Below are positions 26,752 to 47,262 of a stretch of 64,000 nt of DNA, one piece after another (within the stretch, counting starts at the first letter, position 1; every line of letters starts with the position of its first letter). The DNA comes from a virus: positions 1 through 64,000 of IMG/VR virus record IMGVR_UViG_3300033149_003257. One strand, 5' to 3'. Below the pieces are notes generated by a model. The model was not told where the DNA came from. It made no database searches and saw nothing but the letters and a program-made list of their open reading frames with translations. The position numbers and the translations under genes were made by a program.

Positions 26752-29700
26752 TTAGTTTTTATTACCTCTCTTAACTCCTATAGATATTAAATAAGCATCT
26801 AATAATTTAACAGATTCTGAAACTATAGACTGTTCTTTTTGATCTTTAATATGATCTGATTCAATTATTTCTTTGATATAGTTATTTTTTAAATCAATAC
26901 AATCAGATTTAGTAGTTAAAAATTCAAATAAATTACATGGCGCATCATGTGCAATTAAACAAGCAGTTTCCATTTCACCACACCTTTGTCCGCCTCTATT
27001 TTTTCTCCCCCCTAAAGGTTGTAAAGTTTTTCTAGCATATGAACCAATTCCTCTAACTGCTAATTTCTCTTCTGCTATATGAGAAATTTTTGAGAAATAT
27101 AAATATCCAACTGCAATAGGATTTTGAACAATTGTTTGATTTATTGGATCATATATTTCTGATTCAAATTCAGTATTTGTATATTTCATAATAGATTTTA
27201 ACTGTTCTATATTAATAGATTCAAAAGGAGGTTGTATTATAGTAAGATTATTAATAAAATTTTCATCTATAATATCAGGACATTGTTCTTTAAATTGATT
27301 AGAATACCATTTATCTTTTGTACTATCAATCATTTCAATATATTTAATAATATAATCTTTTGTTTCTTTATTACTAAATTTATTTAAATTTTTTAAAGCT
27401 TCTTGTTTTAAATTATAAAAAGACATAGACAAATGTAGTTCAAATAATTGACCAATATTCATTCTAGATATTATACCAAGTGGGTTGATACATATATCAA
27501 CATGTCTACCATCTTTTAATTTTGGCATCTTTTGATGATCAATAATATTAGAAACTATACCTTTATTACCATGTCGATTTACTATTTTATCTCCTATTTG
27601 TATATCTCTAAAAAATATTCCATTTATTTCAACTCTAATTCCATTTACTTTTTCATTTTTAAATTTATATTTTCCAGAATGAGAAAACTTATTTAATCTT
27701 TTTTCTCTAATTATATTTTCTGCTCTATTTTTTGGGAATAAATCAAAAATGATATCTTTAAATTTATTTTCATCTTTAATTTGTCTTTCTGTTATATTAG
27801 TTATCCAATCTACAAATTCAGGAATATCAGTATTCCACTCATTAGCAAATACATTTACTTCTGTAATAATCATATTCTTTTTTACTTTTAATGGAATCTC
27901 TTCTTCAAATATAGAACAGAAATTTGGAACTGAAACTAATTCTTTCAAAATTGCATATGGTTTACCTATTTTAATTGTTTCAAATTTATTAGGAATTGGT
28001 TTATATATTTCTTTATCTAAACTTAATAACACTTTATTTGGAGGTATATTAAATGATAAATCTTCTATGTGTATTGATGTAAGTGATTCATCTTTCACTA
28101 ATCTATCTGAAATAATAATTCCATCTTCATAATTATATCCATAGTATGACATTACAGCACATAAAAGATTTTTTCCTAAATTTATCTTACCATTTGTTAA
28201 AAAATTACTTTCTGCTAATATATCACCTTTCTTAAATTTATCACCAACTCTTACATAAAGACTCATAAAATCCATATTTTCAACATATATATTTCTAGCT
28301 GATATATCAAAAATATCAGAAGTATTATCATTATAAGTTACAATAAGAAAATTAGTATCGATATATAACACTTCACCATCTTTTTTAGCTATTTTAATAA
28401 ATTGGGTATATTTAGTATACAAACTTTCACAACCAGATTGAATCATTGGTATATCAAAATTTTTTAACATTACTGATTGTCTCATTTGTGAAGAAGCCAT
28501 TTGTAATCTTGTTTGATCATTATGTTCTAAAAATGGAATCATAGAAATTGGTATAGAAATAGGTTCTTTTTCTAGAAATTCTTTTTTAAATCTCAAATTT
28601 TCATCTAATTTAACATTTGGAATTAAACTTTGTAATACCCCACAATTATCTCTATCTGGTGTATCTACTGGACATATTCTTCCAAACATTGTTTCAGATA
28701 TATCACGTAAATGTTTTGGAACATTCTCTCTTTTAAAACCTCCTGGACCCAGTAAACTAGTTCTAGATAATCTAGTCAATTCATCAATAGGATTTATAGA
28801 AAAATCAAATTGAACTATATCGGATACATTACAATCTGATAATATTTGACTAGAATTTATATTAAATTTTGGTTGTCTGGAAGTTCTATTTGACATACAT
28901 AAATCAAAAATTGTTTTTGAAACTCTAGTTAATATTATATATTCAAAACATCTTATTCTTTTGTTAATGAAATTAGTATCATCAAAAGGTCCATTTTCAA
29001 TTGCATTAACTAATTCATCTAGAACGTTATTTGTTTTAAAAAATCTTTTTGACGTTATATCTGTTTTCATTATTAAATCTAAAGCATATACAACATTATC
29101 ACCTTTAGTTCTAGAATCATATTTAGAATACATTCTACCAAGTTCTAAAATATAATCATCCTGTGAAAAACCTTCGGATTCCTCATAATACATTTTTAAA
29201 TCAAACAATAACTTTTCAATTAATGTATTTGGATTATTTGATATTGTAATAGATGAAAAATTATATTTATCATCTAAATAATCTGGGCCAAAATATGAAA
29301 ACATTAATAACGATAAAGGAACTTTCTTTCCTAGAAAACTAGCCATAACGAGAGGTTCTTGTATTTCAGAATCTAGTTTTCTTGTATTTTCAATAACTAA
29401 TATAGTTGCTACATTTGTTCTTAACTTAATATTTTTACCTCTAGTTACAATAGGAATATCAAATAATTGAAACTGTGGTATTTTTTTCTTTCCATTAATA
29501 ATAATATAATTATCATCAACTAATTTTGGAATATACATACTGAGATCTAACTCAAAAGTTCCTTTTTTCAATTTTATTACTAAATTTTGTTTTAACGTTT
29601 TTTGTAATTCTCCAGAAGAAAATTTATGATCTTTTATTGTGCATTCAATAATTTCAAAACCAATTTCTTCTACTGTTTTTACTATTTCTTGAATTTGTTG

Positions 29701-29781
29701 AAGAAGATTAGAATATTCTAATTTTCTAATAGTAAAAACATTATTATTTTGAATCTTAAAATTCGGATTTATAATATCCAA
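26752..29781 (-). CDS. RNA polymerase beta-like subunit (first set)
   Basis: A 1009-residue, single-chain beta-type subunit. Diagnostic segments: QMASSQMRQSVML (about 425), SYYGYNYEDGIIIS (about 548-561), IQIGDKIVNRHGNKGIVS (about 727-744), NPLGIISRMNIGQLFELH and GGRKNRGGQRCGEMETACL (about 923-941). These form the catalytic-side DPBB domain and switch regions. It is shorter than the 1363-residue copy at 57740 and starts directly after the beta' gene (12-base gap). Along with its neighbour it forms a two-subunit core lacking any visible alpha subunit. Confidence 0.9.
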   Translation of the reverse strand: MDIINPNFKIQNNNVFTIRKLEYSNLLQQIQEIVKTVEEIGFEIIECTIKDHKFSSGELQKTLKQNLVIKLKKGTFELDLSMYIPKLVDDNYIIINGKKKIPQFQLFDIPIVTRGKNIKLRTNVATILVIENTRKLDSEIQEPLVMASFLGKKVPLSLLMFSYFGPDYLDDKYNFSSITISNNPNTLIEKLLFDLKMYYEESEGFSQDDYILELGRMYSKYDSRTKGDNVVYALDLIMKTDITSKRFFKTNNVLDELVNAIENGPFDDTNFINKRIRCFEYIILTRVSKTIFDLCMSNRTSRQPKFNINSSQILSDCNVSDIVQFDFSINPIDELTRLSRTSLLGPGGFKRENVPKHLRDISETMFGRICPVDTPDRDNCGVLQSLIPNVKLDENLRFKKEFLEKEPISIPISMIPFLEHNDQTRLQMASSQMRQSVMLKNFDIPMIQSGCESLYTKYTQFIKIAKKDGEVLYIDTNFLIVTYNDNTSDIFDISARNIYVENMDFMSLYVRVGDKFKKGDILAESNFLTNGKINLGKNLLCAVMSYYGYNYEDGIIISDRLVKDESLTSIHIEDLSFNIPPNKVLLSLDKEIYKPIPNKFETIKIGKPYAILKELVSVPNFCSIFEEEIPLKVKKNMIITEVNVFANEWNTDIPEFVDWITNITERQIKDENKFKDIIFDLFPKNRAENIIREKRLNKFSHSGKYKFKNEKVNGIRVEINGIFFRDIQIGDKIVNRHGNKGIVSNIIDHQKMPKLKDGRHVDICINPLGIISRMNIGQLFELHLSMSFYNLKQEALKNLNKFSNKETKDYIIKYIEMIDSTKDKWYSNQFKEQCPDIIDENFINNLTIIQPPFESINIEQLKSIMKYTNTEFESEIYDPINQTIVQNPIAVGYLYFSKISHIAEEKLAVRGIGSYARKTLQPLGGRKNRGGQRCGEMETACLIAHDAPCNLFEFLTTKSDCIDLKNNYIKEIIESDHIKDQKEQSIVSESVKLLDAYLISIGVKRGNKN

Positions 29782-29792
29782 AATATAAACTC

Positions 29793-32498
29793 CTATATTC
29801 TTTCCCCTCTTAATATTTTGTCCATAATACCTTTGTAAAAACCAGAATTAAAAATGCCATTTATAATATGTTTTTTAGGATTTGAAAATGCTAAACCAAG
29901 TAACCAACTTTCAAAAGATGGAACTGATTGTATACTATAATAATCAGGTTCTATTGTTTCTCTATTTTCTAGTAATCTCCATTTTCTAAATTCTTTCCAC
30001 ATTAACTGAGCTACAACACATTCAAAATGAACATGATGTATATTTCCTTCTATATTATAAACTTCAAATAATTCATCAACTATATCTTTATAATTTTTTC
30101 CTTTAAATTTATGTAATAATTTACTAACTATAGATAAATCTCCAATAATATCCATTTGTTTCATTACATTTTTCTTATCACTTTTATTTGTAATTGCGGA
30201 ACCTGAAGTGTGAAATGTACGTAATACTAATTGTGTATTATGTTCTCCTAATGATTGTGCAGCAATAACTCCAATAAATTTACTATCAATAAATTTATAC
30301 AAATCACCATAACATTTATGACATATATTTTCACTTTTACAAAATATGGGACTTCTTAAATAAATAGTTTTTCCAATAATTTCTCGATAATTATTTTCAT
30401 CTATAATTTTTAATATACTATCTTCTAAATGATATCTATACATAAGCATTTTAGCTTTCTTTTCATTATTTACAAAAACTTGTAAATAATCTTTTGTTCC
30501 ACAATCATCAAAAGTTAAAGAAATTTGTAAATTAGCACAACTAAATATTAATTTTCTAGATAAATATCCAGAGGTTCCAGTATTTAATGCAACATCTAAT
30601 AACCCTTTTCTACAACCAAATGTAGACATAAAAAATTCTTTCTCATCTAACCCATCTATTAAACAATTTTTAATGGGAGTAGATAAAATTTCACCATCAA
30701 AATTCGAAACAAATCCTCTTGTTAAAGTTATTTGTCTAATTTGATCCCAATTTCCTCTAGCACCAGATTTTATCATATCGGAATAATGAAAATTATCTTT
30801 TAGAAAATTCAAAGTATCATCACTTAAAACGTTTTGTAATTGCTCTCCAACATCTTTACAATTATAAATATTATTTTGAACTTCTTTATAATTTGGAATT
30901 ACACATTGATTCAGAGATAAAGTAGTACCAAAGAGTGTTGTATATTTAAAACCTTCTTTTTTAATTTTATCTAAAACTTGAGATGTTTCAATAGAATTAT
31001 ACTTTGTTTTTATATCATTTAAAATAAAACTTAAAATTCTCTTATCTACTGGATAATCTATTAGATCATAATCTTCTGGTAAACATTCATTAAATATTTT
31101 TCTAGATTCTGTAATTTCTTTTCCTTTATAAAAAGCTTTATCTTGAAGTGAGTCCAATTTATTGGAAGTTAAAATATGAATTCCAAAAATAATATCTTGA
31201 TTTGGTAATGGTACTAAACTATTATTAGATGGACTATTTAAATTTTTGCTCATTAAAAATTTATCTTTAATTTCCTGTTTAGATTCTTCTGTTATTGGAA
31301 TATAAACAGCCATTTGGTCTCCATCGAAATCAGCATTAAAGCCTCTGCAAGATAATGGATGTATTTTAATTACATTTTCAAGAGATACTTTAATTTTAAA
31401 TCCAATCATACCTAATCTATGTAAAGATGGTTGTCGATTTAAAATACATACTTCATCAGTAACAATTTGTTCACAAATTCTAAATAAAGAGGGAATTTTA
31501 TACTCTATACAATCTTCAACAAATTCAATGGCATCGCTTAATGTTTTAAATTTTCTTAATTCAATTAATTTTTTCGAAACTTGAATTTTAAATAATTCTA
31601 AAATCATTATATAAGGTAATACACATTCATCAATATCTAGAGTAGGTTCTGGAACAATTACTGCTCTACCAGAAAAATCTATTCTTTTACCAAGTATATT
31701 TCCTCTAATTAATCCTTCCTTTTTTGATAACTTATCTAAAATATGTTTATATAATTCATTAACATCATTTTGTAATTGTTTAAAATATTGATAAAATAGT
31801 TGTTTATCTCTATTAATATCTATTATAGTATCTTTCATAATTTCTCTTTTCATTAAGATCTGCATATAAAATCTATTTATTTTATCAACTACTTGATTAT
31901 TTTTACTTACGCTTTTTGCTGCAGGTCTCAAATCAGGAGGAAGAACAATTATTTGTTGTAAAAATAATTTATCAATATTATTTTTTATTATATTCCATTC
32001 ATCATAACCAATAGATGTTAAAGTGTCTGCAAAAGTAAATACTAAATTATATATAGCATCTAGTTTTTCCCATCTTTCACAATTTTCAGGAATATTATCT
32101 GGTTTTGTAACTACTAAGAAATCTTCTCCATCTTTATATAAAATACTATGTTCATTATGAAGTAATAAATCTATTGGATTTTTTATTTGTAAACCACCTA
32201 TATCTACTAAAAGATCATAAAATAATGGATTTATTACAGGTATAGGAAGAATTATTTTAGCAAATCTTCTTCTTCTTTCATAATTACTAACAATATCTAC
32301 TCCACATTCTTTACATTTTCCACCTGAAAAAGATATACCATAATATTTTCCACATTGACAAGTATAATTTTTCAATGGACCAAAAATTTGTTCAGAAAAT
32401 AATCCCTCTGAATGAAATTTTTTCTTATCCATTATTTTAGTTGAAGTAACCTCTTTCAAATCTTTACAAAATTCATTAAAATTTAAAAGTTCTGGCAT
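29793..32498 (-). CDS. RNA polymerase beta'-like subunit (first set)
   Basis: A 901-residue beta' subunit in one piece. Zinc site 1: CQCGKYYGISFSGGKCKECG (about residues 49-68). The lid/rudder region has NILGKRIDFSGRAVIV. The catalytic loop is NADFDGDQMAVYIP (about 386-399), giving the three Mg-binding Asp. Zinc site 2: DCGTKDYL, then CKSENICHKCYG (about 720-730), followed by GVIAAQSLGEHNTQLVLRTFH. It resembles bacterial beta' more than the split subunits of phiKZ-type phages. It lies 12 bases upstream of the beta gene and two bases downstream of the 77-residue small gene. Confidence 0.92.
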   Translation of the reverse strand: MPELLNFNEFCKDLKEVTSTKIMDKKKFHSEGLFSEQIFGPLKNYTCQCGKYYGISFSGGKCKECGVDIVSNYERRRRFAKIILPIPVINPLFYDLLVDIGGLQIKNPIDLLLHNEHSILYKDGEDFLVVTKPDNIPENCERWEKLDAIYNLVFTFADTLTSIGYDEWNIIKNNIDKLFLQQIIVLPPDLRPAAKSVSKNNQVVDKINRFYMQILMKREIMKDTIIDINRDKQLFYQYFKQLQNDVNELYKHILDKLSKKEGLIRGNILGKRIDFSGRAVIVPEPTLDIDECVLPYIMILELFKIQVSKKLIELRKFKTLSDAIEFVEDCIEYKIPSLFRICEQIVTDEVCILNRQPSLHRLGMIGFKIKVSLENVIKIHPLSCRGFNADFDGDQMAVYIPITEESKQEIKDKFLMSKNLNSPSNNSLVPLPNQDIIFGIHILTSNKLDSLQDKAFYKGKEITESRKIFNECLPEDYDLIDYPVDKRILSFILNDIKTKYNSIETSQVLDKIKKEGFKYTTLFGTTLSLNQCVIPNYKEVQNNIYNCKDVGEQLQNVLSDDTLNFLKDNFHYSDMIKSGARGNWDQIRQITLTRGFVSNFDGEILSTPIKNCLIDGLDEKEFFMSTFGCRKGLLDVALNTGTSGYLSRKLIFSCANLQISLTFDDCGTKDYLQVFVNNEKKAKMLMYRYHLEDSILKIIDENNYREIIGKTIYLRSPIFCKSENICHKCYGDLYKFIDSKFIGVIAAQSLGEHNTQLVLRTFHTSGSAITNKSDKKNVMKQMDIIGDLSIVSKLLHKFKGKNYKDIVDELFEVYNIEGNIHHVHFECVVAQLMWKEFRKWRLLENRETIEPDYYSIQSVPSFESWLLGLAFSNPKKHIINGIFNSGFYKGIMDKILRGERI

Positions 32499-32500
32499 AT

Positions 32501-32734
32501 TTAATGCTCTCCAAATTCTTCTATAATAAAATTTGCTATTTGAATAAAATGCTCTTTTACAACTGAAGAAACCACTAAATTAATATCTGGCAACAATTCA
32601 TTAACTATTTGTTTTAATTCTTCTCTACTCAATTTCTCTTCGTAATTTTTTATTATGTTTGTAATTAATTGAATTAAAGTTTCTTCAATTGTAAGTTTAT
32701 TAGTTTCTATTTCATTATTATTTTCTTGTGACAT
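32501..32734 (-). CDS. Small acidic helical protein before the RNA polymerase pair
   Basis: A 77-residue acidic protein (MSQENNNEIETNKLTIEETL, then helical KLSREELKQIVNELLP), stop two bases from the beta' start. No family is known to me. Its place between the E2-like gene and the RNA polymerase pair means that it could be an accessory polymerase factor or a partner of the tagging cassette; neither is shown. Confidence 0.55.
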   Translation of the reverse strand: MSQENNNEIETNKLTIEETLIQLITNIIKNYEEKLSREELKQIVNELLPDINLVVSSVVKEHFIQIANFIIEEFGEH

Positions 32735-32740
32735 TAATTA

Positions 32741-33109
32741 CTAATCTCCTTTACTTAATTGAATAAACATTGAATTTACTTTTTTATATTTTATAGATTT
32801 CCACAAAGTATAATAACATTCATCAAAATAAAAAGTTCTCAAATTATTTTCAATTATATTTAAAACTGAATCTGTTGGTTCAACATTTAAATACTTATCA
32901 GAAAGACAATAAATATGATTATCTGGATCACAATTTGGATGATAACCATTTAATATTATCTTTTTAATTTTTTGGTGATTCGTTATAATTAAATAACCAT
33001 TTATAATATGATCTTCTGGTAAATCTAAAATAACGTATAAACTTTTTTGGTAAATTATTCGATTTGGAATAATTCTTTTATTTATAAATAAAAAATCAAT
33101 TTTATCCAC
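32741..33109 (-). CDS. E2-like ubiquitin-conjugating protein
   Basis: A 122-residue protein with the order found in E2/UBC folds. Strands come first, then NGYHPNCDPDNHIYCLSD (about residues 54-71), then EPTDSVLNIIENNLRTF, and an aromatic, helical end. In E2 enzymes HPN is followed about ten residues later by the catalytic Cys and by a helix reading like ..ILLSIQSLL; here HPN, the Cys at about residue 67 (YCLS) and the helix fall in place. It would carry the modifier as a thioester. It lies six bases from the degenerate E1-like gene. Assignment by motif only; a fold prediction would test it. Confidence 0.55.
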   Translation of the reverse strand: MDKIDFLFINKRIIPNRIIYQKSLYVILDLPEDHIINGYLIITNHQKIKKIILNGYHPNCDPDNHIYCLSDKYLNVEPTDSVLNIIENNLRTFYFDECYYTLWKSIKYKKVNSMFIQLSKGD

Positions 33110-33114
33110 TTTTT

Positions 33115-34086
33115 TTAAGCTGCTCCAGTTTCTTCAATTATTTCAACAAAAGAACCATCATCATCTTTATGAACACTAATAACAAAATTAGAAGTCATAA
33201 ATGGAAAATTGATCATAGAAGAAATAATAGATGTAACATCAGTAGAATCTCTTATATAACATTTAGGTATTGTTTTATTAAATAAGGAATGTTCTTTCTC
33301 ACCAAGACAAATTGTTAATGGATTCTCTTTATTTAATTTTATAATTGGAATAATATGTTCTGATAAATTTACTACTTTATCTGTTTTTTCAGTTGAATTA
33401 TAAATAATATCTATTCTTTTTGATATACTACTATCAATACTTTCTTGTAATAAATTATCTAAAAAATCTAAATGAACTCGATGTATTATTTGATTATTTA
33501 TAAAATAATAGATTTGTTTACTAGCAATTATTTGAGAAGCAAATGATGATGCTTTTTGTATATCAGATTTACTCAGTTTAATTATATATCTTCCTTCATA
33601 TTGATAATTTGTTTTTACATTTTTTCTGCAATCAATAATTAGACTTTTACCTGAAATATATAATCTAATATTTATTTCTTTTGATCTATTACATACAAAA
33701 TCTCTACAATCTATAACTAAATCACAATCAGAAAAACATTTGCATTTTTCTATATATTTATTTTTAAATTTTGTTACAGTTACATCATCTGATATAATTT
33801 CTTCTAAAACATCAACTTTAAACTTACCAATATGTTCATATTTATAAATAGATGTTTTTAGATTTTTATTTTCTACAATATCATTATCTATAATAACAAT
33901 TTCTTTTACATCACTTAAAAATGATAAGTATCTACATAAAAATCCACCTAAAGATCCCAATCCAATTATTGCAATTTTTCTTATTTTATATTTAAAATTA
34001 TCATTAAAGATATTAGTATATATAACATTTAATTTTTCTTCTTTAATCAAAGGTTCCTTATCATTTTGATATCTTTCCTCTTTCAC
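33115..34086 (-). CDS. Degenerate E1/ThiF-like protein
   Basis: A 323-residue protein with a Rossmann nucleotide-binding start IAIIGLGSLGGFLCRYL (about residues 38-54), VIIDNDIVENKNL (E1 D.D.VE..NL), and GKFKVDVLEEI. The E1 Arg finger (usually NL.R) is missing (NLKTS), and no Cys stands where the thioester Cys normally is (region QKASSFASQIIASK). So it may be a non-catalytic partner of the E1 at 35635, like the AOS1-type half of SUMO E1, or a different ATP-binding enzyme. The C-terminal 100 residues are extra. Adjacent to the E2-like gene. Confidence 0.6.
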   Translation of the reverse strand: MKEERYQNDKEPLIKEEKLNVIYTNIFNDNFKYKIRKIAIIGLGSLGGFLCRYLSFLSDVKEIVIIDNDIVENKNLKTSIYKYEHIGKFKVDVLEEIISDDVTVTKFKNKYIEKCKCFSDCDLVIDCRDFVCNRSKEINIRLYISGKSLIIDCRKNVKTNYQYEGRYIIKLSKSDIQKASSFASQIIASKQIYYFINNQIIHRVHLDFLDNLLQESIDSSISKRIDIIYNSTEKTDKVVNLSEHIIPIIKLNKENPLTICLGEKEHSLFNKTIPKCYIRDSTDVTSIISSMINFPFMTSNFVISVHKDDDGSFVEIIEETGAA

Positions 34087-34096
34087 AGAGAAACTC

Positions 34097-34342
34097 CTAT
34101 TGATTACTTTCCATTATATTAAGCATTTCATCAATATTGTTCTTTAGAAAAATAAGTTCTTTTTTACTTAATCTTCCCATTTTTCCATATCCAATAGTTT
34201 CATCTTTTTTTACGTAACTTCTAGTTATTTGTAACTTAATTTCTCCTTCATCATATTTCATTAAAGACATTAATAATGATTTATTGTTTTCACCATTCAT
34301 TTCAAATAATTTTATTAAGACATCTTTTTCTGGATCCCACAT
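34097..34342 (-). CDS. Unknown small protein in the tagging cassette
   Basis: An 81-residue protein: MWDPEKDVLIKLFEMNGENN, strands (EIKLQITRSYVKKDETIGYG), GRLSKKELIFLKNNIDEML. The beta-sheet plus C-terminal helix and the KxGRLS-KKEL pattern recall PC4-like single-strand-binding proteins, but this is a weak likeness. It sits eleven bases from the degenerate E1-like gene and after the hairpin at 34362-34398. Confidence 0.45.
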   Translation of the reverse strand: MWDPEKDVLIKLFEMNGENNKSLLMSLMKYDEGEIKLQITRSYVKKDETIGYGKMGRLSKKELIFLKNNIDEMLNIMESNQ

Positions 34343-34361
34343 TTTTCCCCCTTATTAAAAT

Positions 34362-34398
34362 AAATAATCTGGAGAAAAAAATATTCTCCAGATTATTT
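34362..34398 (-). terminator. Hairpin with U-rich flank (probable terminator)
   Basis: A perfect 15-bp stem (AAATAATCTGGAGAA at 34362-34376, complement at 34384-34398), seven-base loop. On the minus strand the stem is followed by a T-rich stretch (TATTTATTTTAAT). It lies between the stop of 34411-35037 and the start of 34097-34342, so it may partly split the cassette into two transcription units. Confidence 0.65.
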
Positions 34399-34410
34399 TT
34401 CAAAAAATTA

Positions 34411-35037
34411 TTAATCTTTTTTTAGTTTACGATCTTTAATTTTAGAAATAATATTCGACTCTGTAAAGCTAGGAATAGGTTTATAAGAAGATTTGTAATC
34501 AAAATCTTTAGATGTAACTACTAATGGATAAATATGAGGTATTCTTAATATAGCACGATGAATCGATTTTCTATCTTTTCTGGTTGCTGTAACTAATTTA
34601 ATTTTATTATATAATTGTATATCAAGTGATTTAAAATGTTCATTTAATTTCTCTATTTCATCTACATCTTTTATTTTTTTTATCTTTAATATTTCTCTAT
34701 TATTCTTATTCCATGTAGAATCAAATGAACCTTTTTTAGAATTATTTTTAATCCATCGATTAACATATGGATTAATTTTATCATCATTTGTTTTTCTATA
34801 TAATGCTTTTACCGCTTTTTTGTAAGAATATGACTTTCCCTTTTGTTTATTATATGTATCTAATAATGAACATATACTAATTCCTCTAGCTAATATATTA
34901 AAATTTTCATCAATTAAAATACAAACTGTATAGACAATAGAAATTTCAGTTGTATTTTTATAAAATCTAATATATTTTACTCCTTTATCTTGAAGATTTT
35001 TCTTAAGAAATCTCCTTTTTTTATTTCCTTTCTTCAT
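34411..35037 (-). CDS. Unknown basic protein
   Basis: A 208-residue, strongly basic protein. The part SIVYTVCILIDENFNILARG then ISICSLLDTYNKQKGKSYSYKKAVKAL has the look of a conserved small phage family (xxARGxxxCSxxD.....GR..A...AL) that I know only by pattern. The C-terminus has KLVTATRKDRKSIHRAILRI. Function unknown. It lies in the middle of the modifier/E1/E2 cassette, between the modifier and the degenerate E1-like protein, so a link to the system is possible. Confidence 0.55.
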   Translation of the reverse strand: MKKGNKKRRFLKKNLQDKGVKYIRFYKNTTEISIVYTVCILIDENFNILARGISICSLLDTYNKQKGKSYSYKKAVKALYRKTNDDKINPYVNRWIKNNSKKGSFDSTWNKNNREILKIKKIKDVDEIEKLNEHFKSLDIQLYNKIKLVTATRKDRKSIHRAILRIPHIYPLVVTSKDFDYKSSYKPIPSFTESNIISKIKDRKLKKD

Positions 35038-35100
35038 TTCCTCCTATCTCCACAGATAACTTAGATAGTCTATTTAAAATAAAATTATTTATTATTTTTA

Positions 35101-35133
35101 GGGGATAATATATACAAAATATATATTATCCCC
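35101..35133. repeat. Perfect 14-bp hairpin after the modifier gene
   Basis: GGGGATAATATATA at 35101-35114 with its complement at 35120-35133, five-base loop. It comes 21 bases after the modifier stop on the minus strand. The transcribed flank on the far side is A-rich, so it is not a classical terminator; it matches the style of the hairpin at 21148-21184. Confidence 0.7.
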
Positions 35134-35154
35134 TTTTCATTATTTAATTAATAA

Positions 35155-35622
35155 CTATTTATAACCTTTTCCACCAGCTGGTTTTAGAAATTCTAAATTA
35201 TCACCAAATTGTAAAACATAACCAGATGGAACCTGTTTTCCATTAACTATTCCATCTGCCATTTTGTCAATATTTAAAACTTCCCGAAGAAATTCAGAAA
35301 CCGCACCAACTGTTTTTCCAACAACATCAAAACGACCAGATGCAGCACCACTAGAAACTAAAATTGTTGTTGTGCACCTATCACCAAATCGAGCAGATGG
35401 TTTTGTAAAGCTGCTAGTAAATACAGCACTTATGTCTGTCACTTTATTAGAATCAACATTACTAATAGAAGGAGATGCTCCATATTTTTCTAAAATTGCA
35501 TCAATAACTACATCTTTTCTTTTCTTAGACATACCCGGTATATCTAATTCATAAACACACATAGTTCTAAGATCAGCGACAGTCCTAGCTTCCAACTCTT
35601 CTCTTGTAAATTCTTTTTTCAT
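35155..35622 (-). CDS. Ubiquitin-like (beta-grasp) modifier with SAP-like N-terminus
   Basis: A 155-residue protein. Residues 1-50 (EARTVADLRTMCVYELDIPG, then KKRKDVVIDAILEKYG) look like a SAP/Rho-N-type helical DNA- or RNA-binding module. Residues about 82-155 read as a beta-grasp domain: TTTILVSSGAASGRFDVVGK, TVGAVSEFLREVLNI, GIVNGKQVPSGYVLQFGDNL, EFLKPAGG. It ends GG-KGYK with the Gly pair at about 150-151, so a four-residue tail would need removal to expose GG. A JAMM protease gene lies two genes away, fitting that need. Family of Ub-like proteins in E1/JAB operons; target unknown. Confidence 0.7.
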   Translation of the reverse strand: MKKEFTREELEARTVADLRTMCVYELDIPGMSKKRKDVVIDAILEKYGASPSISNVDSNKVTDISAVFTSSFTKPSARFGDRCTTTILVSSGAASGRFDVVGKTVGAVSEFLREVLNIDKMADGIVNGKQVPSGYVLQFGDNLEFLKPAGGKGYK

Positions 35623-35634
35623 TTTTTTTTTCTC

Positions 35635-36342
35635 CTAAATAAAAGATTTTAAAAGTTTTTGCTTTGGTTTTCTAATTTTTGAGCTTGCTGACATAGTTTT
35701 TATATCAAAATATATTTCTGAGTAAGTATAATCTTTTAAAACTACAATATTATAAAAAGCCCAACACATAATTGTAGCAACTCCTAAATTAGTAAAATAT
35801 AATTGTGGATCAGACTGAGCTAATTCTTCACAAGACAAATCATCAGGATGATTATCTTGAGCATTAATTATTTCAGGATGATAATCCGTAACTTTTGGAG
35901 TTATATCAACATCATTATATCTAACATATATTTGGACATTTCCATCTGTATATTCATTACCACCAGAAATTAAAATTATATTTGATAATGTACTACAATA
36001 ATCTGAAACTATTCTTCTTGTTTTATGATTATCTACACATACAAAAACTATATCATTATTATAAATATAAGAAGAAATATTATCATCATTTAAAAATTGA
36101 GAAACAAAATTGATGTCTAAATTATTAAATTTTTTTCTCAATTCTTCCATTTTAACTTTTGATTTGTTACCTAACATCATAAAATCTTGTCTTTCAAAAT
36201 TTTTAGGTTCGTATGAATCACCATCAATTAATTTAATATGTGATTCAAAGTTATTTAAATAATTTAAAAATCTACATATTTTTTCTGATAATATAGAACC
36301 AATTCCACCCAAACCAATTATTTTAATATTAATACATTCCAT
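35635..36342 (-). CDS. E1-like activating enzyme (ThiF/UBA family)
   Basis: A 235-residue ThiF-fold enzyme. INIKIIGLGGIGSILSEKIC gives the ATP-binding glycine loop. LIDGDSYEPKNFERQDF supplies the acidic residue and Arg finger (about residue 50). Then DDIVFVCVDN-type segments follow. The Cys in HPDDLSCEELAQSDPQLYFT (about residue 172) is the candidate thioester Cys, with the usual CEE..S.PQ pattern. It would adenylate the modifier C-terminus and form a thioester. It lies 12 bases upstream of the modifier start and 20 bases from the JAMM gene. Confidence 0.8.
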   Translation of the reverse strand: MECINIKIIGLGGIGSILSEKICRFLNYLNNFESHIKLIDGDSYEPKNFERQDFMMLGNKSKVKMEELRKKFNNLDINFVSQFLNDDNISSYIYNNDIVFVCVDNHKTRRIVSDYCSTLSNIILISGGNEYTDGNVQIYVRYNDVDITPKVTDYHPEIINAQDNHPDDLSCEELAQSDPQLYFTNLGVATIMCWAFYNIVVLKDYTYSEIYFDIKTMSASSKIRKPKQKLLKSFI

Positions 36343-36362
36343 AACTTAATCCTTTTAAGTAT

Positions 36363-37382
36363 TTAAAATTTCAATTTATTGGAATATTCTCTATTTGTTT
36401 TAATAATATCTTCTTGGGAATTATCACTAAAATTATAATTATCTTCATCAACATAAAAAAAATCTTCAACATCTACATCTAAATAATCTTCATTATCTTC
36501 ATCCCATTCTTCTATTTGTAATTTCATTTTATAATTTCTAAATACACATTCATTACATGGATTATATTCTTCATCTTCAATATTATTATTAAATAAGCTA
36601 TAATTAATATTTCCACTTGATAAGAAAGAAGAAGAAAATGGAAAAGATTGTTGATTATTATAAAAACTATAAGGGGACATTGAAAAATTGGAAACATAAA
36701 CTCTTTCAGATACATTTTTAAGCCAATCATTAACATTATAATTACATTTATTTTCATTTATTAAATATCTTAATTTTTTAAAATTATCTACTTCTTTAGA
36801 ATCTTCAGATAAAACAAGACCATCAATATATAAAGTTGGATCTACAATAAATCTAGAACCATTCGAAACTATACATGCAGATATACTAACATTTTCAGTA
36901 GGAATATTACCAATTGTTATATGTAAACCATCAAAATATTTTTCATCGTTGATATCTATACCGGAATGAAAAGCACTCATAAAACCATGAGAATGTATAG
37001 TTGCAATCATAATATAATTTTTTGGGCTTGCATTTCTTGTATATTTAATACCGCCTGGAGAAACTTCTTGCAATGGAGAATCGAAAAAATAACTATTATC
37101 TAACAAATTATAATATATAACTATAATTGACTCTCCTTTATACAAATCATATACTTTTTTGAAAAAAGTTATAATTTTATAAAATTCTTCGTTTGAAATT
37201 TTTGGAATATCTAATTTTGCAGAAGATGAAATACTATTTAATATAGAAATATTATCAACTGGTGTTATACTTTCTAATATCCCAACTTTCTTTTTTAAAA
37301 AAATACCTTCTTTAGCAACTATATAAAATATATCATCATCTGGAATCTCTTCTATTCCATTATTAATAAAAATTTTAAACAC
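36363..37382 (-). CDS. JAB/JAMM-domain metalloprotease
   Basis: A 339-residue protein starting with GTG 37382 (AGGAG site ten bases before). The JAMM motif is complete: ATIHSHGFMSAFHSGID (about residues 128-144), that is HxH, seven residues, SxxD, with an upstream Glu (ESIIVIYY region) as the fourth element. JAMM proteases cleave after Gly-Gly in ubiquitin-like systems. The C-terminal third is acidic and carries CNECVF, possibly a zinc knuckle. It sits directly upstream of the E1 gene, so it probably processes the modifier or removes it from targets. Confidence 0.8.
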   Translation of the reverse strand: MFKIFINNGIEEIPDDDIFYIVAKEGIFLKKKVGILESITPVDNISILNSISSSAKLDIPKISNEEFYKIITFFKKVYDLYKGESIIVIYYNLLDNSYFFDSPLQEVSPGGIKYTRNASPKNYIMIATIHSHGFMSAFHSGIDINDEKYFDGLHITIGNIPTENVSISACIVSNGSRFIVDPTLYIDGLVLSEDSKEVDNFKKLRYLINENKCNYNVNDWLKNVSERVYVSNFSMSPYSFYNNQQSFPFSSSFLSSGNINYSLFNNNIEDEEYNPCNECVFRNYKMKLQIEEWDEDNEDYLDVDVEDFFYVDEDNYNFSDNSQEDIIKTNREYSNKLKF

Positions 37383-37387
37383 TATTT

Positions 37388-40042
37388 TTATTCTCCTATA
37401 ATATTAATAATTTCTTTGGGGTCTACCATAATCCCATACTCTCTACGAACATTCGTATCTTTTATTTCTGTATAAGAATTATGAAAAGTTGGAATTACTT
37501 TTTTAAATTGATTTTGATTTACAATTTGTTTTAAACTTTTTCTCGGATTTAATATTCCATATCTAGATATTATACCATTTTTTCTAAAATGTCGTGCATA
37601 AGAATGAGAATACTCATCTTTTATAATATTGACTAAATATTTTTTGTGTAATGGTTCATAACTAGAATTTTCTAACATAGTTATGTTATTATTCATAGTC
37701 TCAAAAATGTCACCACCTTGAAAACCAAAAGTAGAGAATAAAATAGAATCATGATTTATTTTTGACCATGATGGCATATCTTTTGTATATAGTTCAAAAT
37801 TTTCTAACAAATCATCAAACCAAATAGTACAACAGTTTGAACATAAAACTAAAGGTTGATTACAACCAGTATCTGTTAAAAAAGCAACAATAATATTTGC
37901 TTTACTTTTTGGAAAACATTTTATTCCTTTTACCTTTGCTTTTATCTTAGTTCCAACTTTTACACCATTATATTCCGAAGAAACATGTCTAATTGTTCCA
38001 GCATTTATTATTCCAGTTCTAAAACTAATAAAATTTTTCTCATAATTAATATTATCATTACTATTCATTGAAATTACCAAATGATGAAAATCATTTACTG
38101 AAAAATTTGTAATTTGTCTAATTTTTAACATATCTACTGGATTTCTCCAATCTACAAAAATAACTTTATCTCCTAGTGAAAATTGTATATCTAAATCAAA
38201 ACTTCTGATTTTAACATGATCATCAGCTAATATATCTTGTATATTAAAATTTCTATTATAATCTAATTTATCAAGTTGATCAATATAATATCCATCTTTT
38301 CTAACATTTATAATTAAATTCTTACTACTATGCTGTAAATATAATCCATTTCTTACAGTTGAAACCATATTAGCATCATTATTTTCAGTTTCATTAACAA
38401 TATTATGATAATTAAAAAAACTATTTATGTCATAAATTTCTACTTCTTTATTACTGTTTTCAAATATACATCCTAAAACATTATCTTCTGTTTCTGTATC
38501 AAAAGCAACAAATTTTAATAATTTATAAAAATGAATAATTGGACTAAATATTCTTCTACTTTTTTTCATACGTTCATTAAAATAATATTTCTTTCCTATT
38601 TCCAATTTAGTACCATTATTTAATACTATATTATTTAAATCTATATGCTCAGCGACAATAGAATCAGATAAATAATTATAATTATCTGTTATTATTTCTG
38701 CTTTACCATCGTAATTAATTCTAATTTTATTTACCTTATTATAAATACCTTCTATTGGAAAAGTAATTTTAATAATATCTCCGCTTTTTATTGTTACACC
38801 ATTTTTTAAAATAATTTCAGATAAAGAATTTGTATCAAAAATTTGATTCATATATTGCATAAATTTATTAGTTAATTTATACTTTACTACTTTACTATTT
38901 TCTCTATCTTCAAAATTAATATATCTAACTTCTTCAAAATTATTCTCAAAACTATTCTTAAAAATTAGAGAATATATATATTTAACTCTTCCATTATTAA
39001 ATTTAACGGAATCTCCAACAGACAATATACGATCATTTAAATAAAGATTTTTTGAAAAACTTTCTACAAGTGTATAATATTCTTCACCTTCTTCACTTAT
39101 TTCTAATTCATCTACAACATCAATACCTTCACTAAAAAAAGAAACTATATCAAAATAACCTATAATATTTTGTCTGTTTTTCTTGATCTTTTTTTGTATA
39201 AGTGTTTCTACTAATCCCTTCAAATGGACGTTAGCCTTTAACCAATTTACATTAAATATAAACATTGGATCTTTCATAGAATAATAAGACCATGTTAAAA
39301 AATCAGATAACTCTAAAGGTCCTTCTCGTTCGTAATCAATATAATGATATGAATAATCTTTATTAAATATATTTTTCCAGAATGCATTAATATAAGCTTC
39401 AATAGTTTCGTTACAGTTTCCATATGTATATTTATTAGTAATTTCGCCTAAACAAACAGAATAATTTGTATTAATATTTGTTAAATTCGGTTTTAAAAGG
39501 TCATCTTCTAAAGAACCAAATGGAGATAATTTAAAAAATACTTTCATTTCTTTTACTATAGGACCATCAAAAATAAATATATATATAATATAAGGAAATG
39601 ATAAAGATATTTTGTATGGAGATTTATTTTCTTGAAGGAAATTTTGTAAATTAAATATATCTATTTTTCCTTCAATTTTTAATTTTTCAATTATAGCTTC
39701 AAAATTAAAATCTATAAAAATAGTTCTTATTCTTGGTTGTTCTTCAATAACAAATATTTTTTTATGTGTTAAATCTTTAAAAAATCTACAGTTTTTAGGA
39801 AGCAACATATCTAAATCAGCATGTGAATCTTGTATTAATATTTTCTGCATATGCTTAAAAAAATCACTTGTGAGTAATGAAAATTTATTTGAAAAAGGTA
39901 CTACATTAGCTTCAGCTTCATTGATATCTTTTTCTACTAAATTTAATTCAGATATTTTTTCATTACTAAATGCTTTTATATTATATAAACCTGTTTTATT
40001 TCTATCAATAATTATACAATCATTTGTTGACATTGTTGACAT
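37388..40042 (-). CDS. Large protein with PRTRC-B/E2-like domain
   Basis: An 884-residue protein. Around residues 105-240 a pattern fits prokaryotic E2 family D (PRTRC-B): EEQPRIRTIFIDFNF, then SFPYIIYIFIFDG, VFFKLSPFGSLEDDLLKPNL, TNINTNYSVCLGEI (Cys at about 197), and YINAFWKNIF. The rest is beta-rich and without recognisable motif, with several internal KV...GDxVKF-type segments (perhaps repeated SH3-like domains). It lies five bases before the JAMM gene. It may be an E2-type carrier, or a target or scaffold of the tagging cassette. The domain call rests on pattern memory. Confidence 0.5.
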   Translation of the reverse strand: MSTMSTNDCIIIDRNKTGLYNIKAFSNEKISELNLVEKDINEAEANVVPFSNKFSLLTSDFFKHMQKILIQDSHADLDMLLPKNCRFFKDLTHKKIFVIEEQPRIRTIFIDFNFEAIIEKLKIEGKIDIFNLQNFLQENKSPYKISLSFPYIIYIFIFDGPIVKEMKVFFKLSPFGSLEDDLLKPNLTNINTNYSVCLGEITNKYTYGNCNETIEAYINAFWKNIFNKDYSYHYIDYEREGPLELSDFLTWSYYSMKDPMFIFNVNWLKANVHLKGLVETLIQKKIKKNRQNIIGYFDIVSFFSEGIDVVDELEISEEGEEYYTLVESFSKNLYLNDRILSVGDSVKFNNGRVKYIYSLIFKNSFENNFEEVRYINFEDRENSKVVKYKLTNKFMQYMNQIFDTNSLSEIILKNGVTIKSGDIIKITFPIEGIYNKVNKIRINYDGKAEIITDNYNYLSDSIVAEHIDLNNIVLNNGTKLEIGKKYYFNERMKKSRRIFSPIIHFYKLLKFVAFDTETEDNVLGCIFENSNKEVEIYDINSFFNYHNIVNETENNDANMVSTVRNGLYLQHSSKNLIINVRKDGYYIDQLDKLDYNRNFNIQDILADDHVKIRSFDLDIQFSLGDKVIFVDWRNPVDMLKIRQITNFSVNDFHHLVISMNSNDNINYEKNFISFRTGIINAGTIRHVSSEYNGVKVGTKIKAKVKGIKCFPKSKANIIVAFLTDTGCNQPLVLCSNCCTIWFDDLLENFELYTKDMPSWSKINHDSILFSTFGFQGGDIFETMNNNITMLENSSYEPLHKKYLVNIIKDEYSHSYARHFRKNGIISRYGILNPRKSLKQIVNQNQFKKVIPTFHNSYTEIKDTNVRREYGIMVDPKEIINIIGE

Positions 40043-40044
40043 AA

Positions 40045-40416
40045 TTATTCACCTTTCATAAATTTTAACATTTTTGCATATTTTGTTATTATTTTTTTTG
40101 CTGTTTCTTCATGAATCGCAAAAGTCTTTTTTGTTCTTAAACCTTTTCTATTTTTTAGTAAATCTTCAGTTAATGCTGATTGTAAAACTATAATAAATTT
40201 TCCTGGCATTTCTCTTTCTAAATTAAGATAACTTGTTTCATTTTTTGTTTTTCCAGGAACCTGTAAAGATAAAAATATATTTGGCCCTTTTGGTAAATTG
40301 ACATAATCTTGTATTGTAGAAACTTCTTCTTGATAAATACTATCACAAAGTCTTTTTACTTGTTCATCAAGACTACTATCTTCACAGTCGATTAAAACTT
40401 CTTCTAAAAGTGTCAT
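40045..40416 (-). CDS. Unknown small protein
   Basis: A 123-residue protein, acidic front, basic end (GLRTKKTFAIHEETAKKIIT). The stop is two bases from the start of the 884-residue protein, so it is probably co-transcribed with the tagging cassette. No motif recognised. Confidence 0.5.
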   Translation of the reverse strand: MTLLEEVLIDCEDSSLDEQVKRLCDSIYQEEVSTIQDYVNLPKGPNIFLSLQVPGKTKNETSYLNLEREMPGKFIIVLQSALTEDLLKNRKGLRTKKTFAIHEETAKKIITKYAKMLKFMKGE

Positions 40417-40417
40417 T

Positions 40418-40768
40418 TTATTCCCCTAAATATGATTCACAAAATTGTTTCATATTAACAAATATTGATTTAAATAATTTTTCTTTATTAATTTTTTTTG
40501 TTGATGATTGATATAATATAAATGCAAATACCTCTTCAATAAAAGTTAAAATATCATCATCCAATTCTTCTACACTATTTGTATTTTGAATATATGCCTG
40601 GTTATTAATTATATCAATAAAATTAAACCTATCTTTCAAATTATTATTATCTTTAAATAAAATATTATTCATTCTTAATATACAACCAAATATATTATTT
40701 AACCATATAACTCCATTTGTTGTATCAATTTCTAAAGTTGCTAGAGGAATTTTTTTAATTAGTCTCAT
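40418..40768 (-). CDS. Unknown small protein
   Basis: A 116-residue protein: a short basic start, LATLEIDTTNGVIWLNNIFG, then a mainly helical acidic part ending KQFCESYLGE. Tightly packed between 40045-40416 and 40776-41081. Function unknown. Confidence 0.5.
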   Translation of the reverse strand: MRLIKKIPLATLEIDTTNGVIWLNNIFGCILRMNNILFKDNNNLKDRFNFIDIINNQAYIQNTNSVEELDDDILTFIEEVFAFILYQSSTKKINKEKLFKSIFVNMKQFCESYLGE

Positions 40769-40775
40769 AAATTAA

Positions 40776-41081
40776 TCACCTCCGTCTAATACTAAACTTT
40801 TTAGTTGGTGTTTCTAACCATTCTACTTTTTGGAATGGGACAGATCTCCAATCATTTTTTTCTAAATCAAAAACATGAATAATTTTATTATCTTTTAATA
40901 ACTTTAAAATTTTTTCTATATTTACAGATTTTGGTTTTTTGGAATCAGGTATTTTATCAAAATTTAAAGTACATTTCATAATTCTTATACTTCCATCTTG
41001 TTTTTTAAACCTTATATTTACCGAATCCTCTCCTCGAACTTTTCTCCAAAATTCTATTACACTATCTATAAAGTCTTCCAT
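40776..41081 (-). CDS. WYL_2 (DUF2693)-like small SH3-type protein
   Basis: A 101-residue protein. VNIRFKKQDGSIRIMKCTLN and later IIHVFDLEKNDWRSVPFQKV follow the pattern of the WYL_2/DUF2693 family, common in T4-type phages (F.KKDG..R.M.CT, then V.D.....WR). Its role in phages is not established; the SH3-like fold suggests nucleic-acid or ligand binding. It lies between the tagging cassette and the radical SAM gene. Confidence 0.65.
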   Translation of the reverse strand: MEDFIDSVIEFWRKVRGEDSVNIRFKKQDGSIRIMKCTLNFDKIPDSKKPKSVNIEKILKLLKDNKIIHVFDLEKNDWRSVPFQKVEWLETPTKKFSIRRR

Positions 41082-41095
41082 ATTCCTCCATTAAA

Positions 41096-42121
41096 TTATA
41101 TCCTTTTTTCTCGGTGCATAACAATTTCTGATAAACTAGGGTTTTTTTCAACAATATTTGACATTAACATACATGTCCAATTACATTTTCTACAAAGTTC
41201 TTTTTTATTCTTTTTAATAAAAGAATTTAAAAATGGACTTATTTCTTTATCTTTCAAAAATATTTTATCTGCTGGAAATACTCCAATACTTCCTTTTATT
41301 CGCAAACATAATCTAACCGTTCCATCAGCATCTATTGATAAATTATGTAAATTATTTTCAATTTTACAATCCATCTCAGATGGAAGTATATTTATAATTT
41401 TATTTAAAAAGTTAGATCCCATATGTACATCTAAATTCTCTTTTTGTATTAAATCTATTTGCTCTTCTAAAATTTTTGTTCTACTTACTAAGAGACTTTT
41501 ATCAGAAACATTAGAAAAATCATAATATGGAGTTTTTGCTATATCAATAAAAGTTATAGAACTACTTATATTATAGTCAGATAAATATTTTACTAGAGAA
41601 TATAAATACTCAACATTATTATTATCAACTGTAATTTCAGCAACTAGATCTTTTATAATTCCTTTATATTTAGAAAGATTTATTAATCCCTGTGTACTTT
41701 TTTTCATTCTGTCAGAAAATTCTTCATCAGAGAAAATTAGTGGATCAATTGAAGAAGTCAATCCAGAAATATATGGTACACTAATCATTAAATCTTCTAA
41801 TTTATCTTGAACTTCTTCTGAATTATTTGTAATAATTGTATAATGTATACCTTTCTTATTACAATATACAACTATTTCTGCAAGATCTTCTCTTAATAAT
41901 GGTTCACCACCATAAAATATATGAAACATATCTGAATTATGGTTATAAAATTTTTCTAAACAATTTATAACAAACGAAGTAGACATTTCATTTTCATAAT
42001 AATATTTCATATTTGGATATGCTTTTGGTTTATCTTTATAATTTCTAACAATTCCACAATAAGAACATCTAAGATTACACTTTCTTGTTAATAACCAATT
42101 AACAATTCTAATTTCTGACAT
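41096..42121 (-). CDS. Radical SAM / SPASM-type enzyme
   Basis: A 341-residue enzyme with CNLRCSYC (Cys 15, 19, 22), the CxxxCxxC site of the SAM-bound iron-sulfur cluster, then IFYGGEPLLR (GGEP motif), ITNNS, and LSIDADGTVRLCLRIKG near residue 260. At the C-terminus CRKCNWTC carries a SPASM-type auxiliary cluster motif. SPASM enzymes modify peptides or proteins (anSME, RiPP maturases). It is not a QueE-type enzyme, which is about 210-250 residues and lacks these C-terminal Cys. The target is unknown. Placed next to recombination genes. Confidence 0.8.
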   Translation of the reverse strand: MSEIRIVNWLLTRKCNLRCSYCGIVRNYKDKPKAYPNMKYYYENEMSTSFVINCLEKFYNHNSDMFHIFYGGEPLLREDLAEIVVYCNKKGIHYTIITNNSEEVQDKLEDLMISVPYISGLTSSIDPLIFSDEEFSDRMKKSTQGLINLSKYKGIIKDLVAEITVDNNNVEYLYSLVKYLSDYNISSSITFIDIAKTPYYDFSNVSDKSLLVSRTKILEEQIDLIQKENLDVHMGSNFLNKIINILPSEMDCKIENNLHNLSIDADGTVRLCLRIKGSIGVFPADKIFLKDKEISPFLNSFIKKNKKELCRKCNWTCMLMSNIVEKNPSLSEIVMHREKRI

Positions 42122-46845: not shown

Positions 46846-47262
46846 CTAATCTAACGAAAAAGTAGCTTTTGAATTTTCATTTTCATAAATAGTTACATAA
46901 TCCATTTCTATAAGTATACTTATTTGTTTTAATTTATGTGATATTTCTCGATAAAGAATTTGACATAATATTTCAGCTGTTGGATCATAATTAAATTTAA
47001 TGATTTTCATATTTTTTTTCATTAAATCCATACAATCATCCATAGTATTTAACATTAATGCATGATCCCACTTATCTAATATTTCATTAACTATCTTCTT
47101 TAAATCAGAAAAATCTAGAAGCATATCATTATCATTTAAATATTCACTTTTAATTCCAACTAAAATAGTAAAATTATGACCATGAATATTAGAACACAAT
47201 CCACTATGCTTACTTAACCTATGACCCACAGGTATTGTAAATTTCTTTTCTATTTTAAACAA
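46846..47262 (-). CDS. queD: 6-carboxytetrahydropterin synthase, QueD/PTPS family
   Basis: A 138-residue enzyme. It has VGHRLSKHSGLCSNIHGHN (zinc His and the catalytic Cys; His at about 13, 27 and 29), LLDFSDLKKIV (about 58-68), LDKWDHALML and PTAEILCQILY. It converts dihydroneopterin triphosphate to 6-carboxy-tetrahydropterin on the way to preQ0. FolE2 at 25858-26733 would supply its substrate. No QueE or QueC is seen here. The phage may make preQ0 or alter its DNA with a 7-deazaguanine; the missing steps may be elsewhere or come from the host. Confidence 0.85.
   Translation of the reverse strand: MFKIEKKFTIPVGHRLSKHSGLCSNIHGHNFTILVGIKSEYLNDNDMLLDFSDLKKIVNEILDKWDHALMLNTMDDCMDLMKKNMKIIKFNYDPTAEILCQILYREISHKLKQISILIEMDYVTIYENENSKATFSLD

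Follow-up and report, generated by a model that had tools for sequence, protein, structure and literature searches.

Ubiquitin-like (Ubl) conjugation in bacteria has so far been described mostly as anti-phage defence or in plasmid cassettes of unknown function. Here we analyse a gene cassette found on the minus strand, at positions 32741-40042 of a 64,000-nucleotide stretch of viral DNA (the window), which represents the beginning of the 151,964-base virus record IMGVR_UViG_3300033149_003257. This ~152-kb fragment has a G+C content of 24.8% and harbours genes for a terminase large subunit, a baseplate wedge protein, SbcCD-like proteins, topoisomerase II and two sets of multisubunit RNA polymerase (RNAP) subunits. 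The source virus is an AT-rich myovirus with two multisubunit RNAPs. The initial annotation of the window had proposed a phage-encoded conjugation cassette comprising a Ubl modifier, an E1 (E1a), an E1-like partner (E1b), a small E2-like protein, a JAMM metalloprotease (JAB) and a large protein with a second E2-like pattern (Big). All these genes are present on the minus strand. Homology, the invariance of active sites and the gene order lend the proposal good support, as does the viral setting, with terminase and baseplate genes and the two RNAPs. Based on these features, the cassette probably encodes an active, reversible Ubl conjugation system, which would be part of the conserved core in a lineage of large, RNAP-encoding myoviruses. 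We infer its enzymatic activity and the direction of transfer from its parts, their active sites, their order and their co-inheritance.

The closest known kind of system is the plasmid PRTRC cassette (TIGR03734-03742). Both have a set composed of a Ubl, an E1, an E2 with a Prok-E2_D-type domain (E2-D) and a JAMM protein, and the order E2-D, JAB (PRTRC_A-like), ThiF is the same in the window, in its phage relatives and in PRTRC-like plasmid and phage loci. In PRTRC-like plasmids and in the Bacillus phage vB_BauM_KLEB27-3 (KLEB27-3), the modifiers are Prok_Ub proteins with a related AG-x-KG tail. The window departs from PRTRC by the SAP domain of its Ubl, by its second E1-like/E2-like pair and by its location in an RNAP/SbcCD core block. 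E1a reached 49.7 bits with the PRTRC ThiF equivalog TIGR03736, whose cut-off is 144.75, and the JAB protein 34.9 bits with the PRTRC_A model TIGR03735, whose cut-off is 101.8. Prok_Ub (PF14454, PRTRC_C) gave no match in the record at E≤1, and neither TIGR03734 nor PF02195 detected ParB in the 152-kb fragment, a possibly incomplete record, while both detected the controls. We therefore did not file the cassette as PRTRC on the basis of ThiF, PRTRC_A, Prok_Ub and ParB. The PRTRC_F model matched nothing in the record and was equally silent in the control genomes.

Type II CBASS also combines E1, E2 and JAB functions. The fold predicted for E1b is closest to the E1 domain of its Cap2 protein, and a further likeness is the presence of a C-terminal Ala or Gly on a protein other than ubiquitin. 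Nevertheless, Cap2 is a fused E1-E2, whereas the E1 and E2 of the window are separate proteins and a dedicated Ubl is present; with E1-E2 models, the matches of E1a and E1b are confined to the E1 part. No cGAS-like nucleotidyltransferase is evident among the annotated window genes, on which no search aimed at one was made. Bil (BilABCD) and Bub operons similarly contain Ubl, E1, E2 and JAB genes, and weak BilD and BubCD matches were found. With the BilA, BilB, BilC and BilD models, the only match was a weak one of BilD to E1b (E=0.0018). Unlike these host-carried systems, the cassette is carried by a phage, contains other E2 and Ubl families and has no defence neighbours. With the eukaryotic ubiquitin and SUMO pathways it shares the HPN...C motif of E2s and an Rpn11-like JAMM protein, the two different E1-like proteins recall heterodimeric E1s, and head-to-tail modifier units in some relatives (L015/L065 and KLEB27-3; L-numbers label the contig loci compared) recall polyubiquitin. 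However, sequence similarity is very remote, the tail is KG, there is an additional E2-D and no E3 was recognised. Altogether, the cassette probably works like PRTRC-, Bil- or CBASS-type conjugation, and the most fitting description is that of a phage-core variant among the prokaryotic E1-E2-JAB-Ubl systems. Among overviews of jumbo and huge phages, PMC7824862 does not mention ThiF, JAB or Ubl, and PMC7162821 does not mention ubiquitin. Searches of the literature on phage PRTRC/Ubl systems and on KLEB27-3 retrieved nothing relevant, with incomplete coverage that makes an earlier description possible.

Active sites of the enzymes and tail of the modifier

We examined the conservation of catalytic residues over non-redundant homologues of E1a (n=93), JAMM (n=92) and E2-D (n=66), and that of the tail over 78 Ubl homologues. 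E1a (235 residues, 35635..36342) is a ThiF-family protein (PF00899, 5e-19, over the curated cut-off; PRTRC_ThiF, 2.9e-13) with a full adenylation site. Both the Cys and the Arg finger that had been noted for an E1 are found in it, as Cys171 and as R51 of the NxxRQ motif. C171 and D104 are present in 93/93 homologues, R51 in 92/93, and G10/G12 and D40 likewise in 92-93/93. Thus, E1a has the predicted ATP site and catalytic Cys of an E1. The JAMM protein (339 residues, 36363..37382) harbours the expected HSH-x7-S-x2-D motif (H130-S-H132-x7-S140-x2-D143) together with an upstream Glu, E84, and these five catalytic positions are kept in 92/92 homologues. It matched PRTRC_A (1.1e-8) and Prok-JAB (2.2e-4), and its sole relatives in the PDB, detected weakly with its profile, are of the Rpn11 type. 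Its residues are those of a putative isopeptidase or maturation protease.

Big (884 residues, 37388..40042) is composed of an N-terminal Prok-E2_D/PRTRC-B-like E2 domain at residues ~50-270 and of a lineage-specific C-terminal region of ~600 residues. For the PRTRC-B-like pattern first seen in the sequence, Prok-E2_D matches were obtained in 10 of 12 homologues (best 3.3e-6), and in other phages the domain maps to residues ~50-290; TIGR03737 gave no match with the Big protein of the window. Cys197, which lies in an NxxxSVCLG motif, and Trp222 are each conserved in 66/66 homologues. The invariance of the catalytic residues holds down to ~20-30% identity. A second candidate E2 is the small protein of 122 residues (32741..33109), in which the predicted HPN...C motif corresponds to H57-P-N-x8-C68. 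Among 11 divergent homologues its only invariant columns are P15, I27, H57, P58, N59, C68 and D96, and HPN..C is kept in 61/66 non-redundant homologues. In its AlphaFold2 model (pLDDT 88.7), strands come first, then HPN, the Cys and a helix, which is the succession found in an E2 core. The two proteins therefore both present the putative catalytic Cys of an E2, in 66/66 and 61/66 homologues, respectively; the E2 fold of the smaller one is suggested by its motifs and one good model. That every catalytic residue is preserved suggests that tagging chemistry known from cells may also work for some phages.

The Ubl (155 residues, 35155..35622) appears to combine a SAP/Rho_N-like domain with a beta-grasp domain. 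Its N-terminal half (residues 9-46) matched Rho_N in 9 of 11 homologues (best 3.8e-13), and its C-terminal half matched ThiS in 9 of 11 and TGS in 8 of 11 (best 5.7e-4), with individually weak scores. These profiles and the motifs are consistent with the beta-grasp modifier proposed at first. The GG reported near its end was not retained as the conserved feature, which is a [AST]G-x-KG tail found in 72/78 homologues. The protein ends exactly with KG in 51/78 of them and with KGC in 18, and a few have longer ends, including that of the window (AGGKG-YK). The putative modifier thus has a Gly at or near its C-terminus. In L015/L065, the SAP-Ubl protein is made of two tandem units, each closed by AGRKG, and such tandem fusions, like that of KLEB27-3, imply that a protease is needed. 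A ...KG tail has a practical consequence: trypsin would leave a single Gly (+57.02 Da), which is also the mass of carbamidomethylation. KG-tailed adducts would escape anti-GG antibodies and mass spectrometry for GG adducts, a practical reason why they could be overlooked.

E1b (323 residues, 33115..34086) has a conserved end as well. Its last residue is Ala in 68/71 homologues, 51 of which end with TGAA, as in the window, or TGGA; T-G and the terminal Ala are kept and the penultimate residue alternates between A, G and S. We rejected the idea that a Shine-Dalgarno constraint explains the conserved Ubl and E1b tails, as their codons vary freely (GGA/GGT/GGG/GGC and GCA/GCT/GCG/GCC). A general trait of these phage genes was also rejected, as the last residue is not conserved in most families of the neighbourhood. 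In a separate case, p123 (40045-40416, minus strand), most relatives end with [RK]GE, and the gene end apparently encodes the Shine-Dalgarno sequence of the next gene. In the L004/L006/L007 group, a SAP-like protein without beta-grasp domain is encoded directly upstream of Big (L004:4045-4482).

Gene order and inheritance of two modules

The close relatives of the cassette are metagenomic contigs throughout, and the record itself is fragmentary. Some of the compared contigs are near-duplicates, so that our figures count contigs rather than independent lineages. Scanning viral contigs with E1a alone revealed the same gene block in many of them. With RpoC as an independent starting point, we collected 80 loci, 59 of which encode all six core proteins in the same order. 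The other 21 comprise 11 contigs cut near RpoC, six RNAPs of other kinds (≤38% identity) and four real exceptions. The order, whose absence from other phages was to count against the proposal, is found in 59 of the 63 contigs of the same RpoC clade with enough flanking sequence, a result strongly in its favour. The cassette order and active sites are not due to chance; they recur in dozens of viral contigs. Among the exceptions, L163 has E1b and the small E2 only, L169 has none of the six, L172 has only the four-gene half, and Big and the small E2 were not found in L174. In L163, E1b and the small E2 adjoin RpoC; E1a was not found on the 92-kb contig, and JAB and Ubl are absent from the stretch read.

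The genes of the window are a few bases apart except around Ubl-p208-p81, consistent with the tight packing described initially. The minus-strand order is SbcC, radical SAM, p101, p116, p123, Big, JAB, E1a, Ubl, p208, p81, E1b, small E2, p77, RpoC, RpoB. The genes first assigned to the block were confirmed; its limits were not, as synteny also spans SbcC-radical SAM-p101-p116-p123 upstream and p77-RpoC-RpoB downstream (RpoC, 29793..32498; RpoB, 26752..29781). The distances of the cassette proteins correlate with those of RpoC over 65 loci (Mantel r of 0.81 for E1a, 0.81 for Ubl, 0.70 for JAB and 0.69 for E1b; p=0.001 for each), and the module has therefore been inherited with the RNAP. This conserved, putative conjugation/deconjugation module represents core equipment of a phage lineage, in contrast with defence and plasmid settings.

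The genes form two modules, Big-JAB-E1a-Ubl and E1b-E2, with a hairpin between them, and the latter module is linked to RpoC/RpoB. Median gaps are -8 for Big-JAB, -4 for JAB-E1a, 23.5 for E1a-Ubl and -1 for E1b-E2. In 62/67 loci, the Ubl gene is followed by a strong hairpin (mean of -21 kcal/mol, versus -5 to -9 after other genes). The window copy (AGGGGATAATATATA...TATATTATCCCCT, 35100..35134), directly 3' of the Ubl gene, was found listed on the plus strand and is visible in the minus-strand sequence. The hairpin resembles a terminator in some loci. The window copy has no T-run on the sense strand, so that its role may be that of a 3'-end or processing element.

The four-gene module is also found without E1b-E2 in other phage contigs of up to 527 kb (L088, L091, L095 and others). 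These contigs have one to three E2-D copies, all retaining the Cys, and their Ubl is shorter, with the SAP part missing in those read. In the very large phage contigs L080, L087, L088, L089 and L095, two or three E2-D paralogues lie in or beside the cassette, always with the Cys.

Proposed mechanism and alternative explanations

In the reversible conjugation system that we favour, the JAMM protease would trim Ubl proteins with a C-terminal extension (in the window, after the KG of KG-YK), exposing the C-terminal Gly. E1a would adenylate this Gly and then take up the Ubl as a thioester. Cys197, in the E2-D domain of Big, would then receive the Ubl for attachment to target proteins, with the ~600-residue C-terminal part of Big as a likely target- or complex-binding region. 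The small E2 might perhaps also transfer the Ubl, and the JAMM protease would also remove the tag. E1b and the HPN-C protein would constitute another pair of E1-like and E2-like proteins, encoded beside RpoC/RpoB. One possibility is that E1b is a (pseudo-)subunit partner in a heteromeric E1; another is that, like CBASS cGAS, it is itself conjugated by way of its tail ending in Ala. Its Ala end is compatible with such a donor role, since cGAS is conjugated via a C-terminal Gly or Ala (PMC10097602). Because of the SAP/Rho_N domain and the recombination and transcription genes nearby, our guess from this anatomy is that nucleic acid-associated proteins are tagged, namely phage-DNA or transcription proteins such as the phage or host RNAP. 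A two-branch, eukaryote-like ubiquitin system essential in infection, in which the SAP-Ubl of one branch tethers every tagged protein to phage DNA or RNA and the other branch, made up of E1b with its TG(A/G)A tail and the HPN-C E2, conjugates E1b itself to, for instance, the RNAP of the cluster, seems unlikely.

Several observations weigh against the favoured explanation. The Big protein of the window scored 16.1 bits with Prok-E2_D (PF14460), for a cut-off of 25, and the hits of the window Ubl taken alone are under the Pfam cut-offs. Neither a significant fold match nor a significant profile match was found for the small E2: E2s ranked 1, 5 and 7 in Foldseek at E values of about 1, and the PDB profile search was empty. 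Structure prediction, advised at the outset, thus gave a confident model of this protein with non-significant Foldseek matches, and it yielded a ThiF-type fold for E1b (pLDDT 74) with matches to Cap2, MccB, ThiF and UBA5 at E values down to 4e-8. E1b also exceeds the curated ThiF cut-off (PF00899, 2.5e-14), in agreement with its assignment as an E1-like partner. Nevertheless, it lacks both the NxxRQ Arg and an evident catalytic Cys of the ThiF type, which an active E1 would be expected to have. Finally, the reciprocal gene contents of L163 and L172 imply that the two modules need not work together. A separate candidate, a possible beta-grasp Ubl domain at the C-terminus of E1b, was prompted by a predicted strand-strand-helix-strand-strand arrangement but received no profile support (hhalign probability of 1.4%). 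Pfam and PDB profile searches with this domain gave no match, and hhalign against single ThiS or MoaD sequences was uninformative.

Conjugation might be restricted to the four-gene module, E1b and the small E2 being a diverged, non-conjugating pair bound to the RNAP, for example as assembly or regulatory factors, with TGAA as a ClpXP-type degron. We give this explanation some weight while considering it rather unlikely. It would account for the residues missing from E1b and for the grouping of E1b with RpoC/RpoB beyond the hairpin, and a C-terminal AA resembles the end of ssrA. However, HPN and Cys are the best-conserved positions of the small E2, and a degron would not need to retain T-G and the terminal Ala while the penultimate residue varies.

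The cassette might instead serve counter-defence, by tagging and disabling host defence proteins or as a decoy or competitor for host Bil or CBASS Cap2. Phages are indeed targeted by Ubl systems of the CBASS type (PMC10097602), the best Foldseek match of E1b is Cap2, and its Ala end is like that of some CBASS cGAS proteins. We regard this role as quite improbable: almost all members of the clade have the module and inherit it vertically, unlike typically patchy counter-defence genes, and a full catalytic set exceeds the needs of a decoy.

A sulfur-carrier pathway, in which ThiF-type enzymes would thiocarboxylate the beta-grasp protein to supply sulfur for tRNA, cofactor or cysteine synthesis, with release by JAMM, is very doubtful. 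It leaves unaccounted for two syntenic E2-like proteins with a conserved Cys, giant phages with up to three E2-D copies and the Cys kept in all, and a KG rather than GG tail; rhodanese, cysteine desulfurase and thiamine/Moco genes were not seen among the annotated cassette neighbours. The ThiS and TGS matches of the Ubl, the ThiF/MoeB-like E1s and a QueD-like gene nearby are in its favour.

Most improbable is a virion or tail maturation module that cross-links structural proteins, like lambda TAPI (Ub-like)/TAPK (JAB): phage tail clusters that include a Ub-like protein and JAB have been described (PMC1779556) and this phage, a myovirus, has a baseplate gene, but the cassette sits in the SbcCD/RNAP block, away from the terminase and baseplate genes, and the architecture of TAPI/TAPK, which comprises NlpC/P60 and no E1, does not fit.

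Cultured relatives and neighbouring genes

Among the named cultured phages of INPHARED, KLEB27-3 (OM634661.1) alone has an E1a match. Its genes gp194-gp199 encode an E1 (30.6% identity), a PRTRC_A-like JAMM protein, an E2-D-like protein (sub-threshold) and a Ubl. It thus resembles the window in E1, JAMM, E2-D-like protein and AGVKG-tailed Ubl and differs by four tandem Prok_Ub units and the lack of the SAP domain; a profile search found neither E1b nor the HPN-E2 in its cassette stretch. The unannotated gp199 (L020:2742-3449) consists of four tandem 57-residue Prok_Ub units (5e-27), each with a Met start and an AGVKG end, followed by the 7-residue extension MPRIVVK. Two units are identical as proteins, with 31 synonymous and no nonsynonymous codon differences, and the units overall show strong synonymous and almost no protein divergence, as in the polyubiquitin genes of eukaryotes. 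Bacteria are already known to have tandem Ub-like repeats as such (PMC1779556). Four- and two-unit Ubl genes with AGTKG tails are found beside E2-D, JAB and ThiF genes in two large plasmids, the Bacillus velezensis plasmid pAD3 (L239:7986-8723) and the Cytobacillus plasmid pN497-ZHONG (L240:7989-8330), respectively, both of which could be phage-plasmids or PRTRC-like plasmids. A related cassette in a cultured phage makes experiments possible, and ubiquitin-type tagging by viruses of microbes during infection becomes testable.

In bacterial genomes, the E1a scan gave seven matches, all in contigs of metagenome-assembled genomes; one of them, L104, shares the synteny of the phage contigs and probably represents misbinned viral sequence. 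Between Ubl and E1b, p208 (34411..35037) and p81 (34097..34342), both on the minus strand, are each present in a minority of relatives; profile searches gave no convincing family for p208, and family searches with p81 gave no match. The small conserved p77 (32501..32734, minus strand) separates the small E2 from RpoC, and the small conserved genes p123, p116 and p101 (40045..41081, minus strand) are members of the syntenic block. They are preceded, in the direction of transcription, by a radical SAM gene (41096..42121, minus strand; Radical_SAM, 2.9e-10), and nearly all relatives have this gene upstream of their cassette. We rejected its identification as a true viperin, its best named match (1.6e-14), because the score is far under the cut-off and barely above those of other radical SAM families. 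Lastly, the QueD-like gene (46846-47262, minus strand) codes for a 6-carboxytetrahydropterin synthase (2.2e-26, over the cut-off), pointing to deazaguanine modification of DNA or tRNA.

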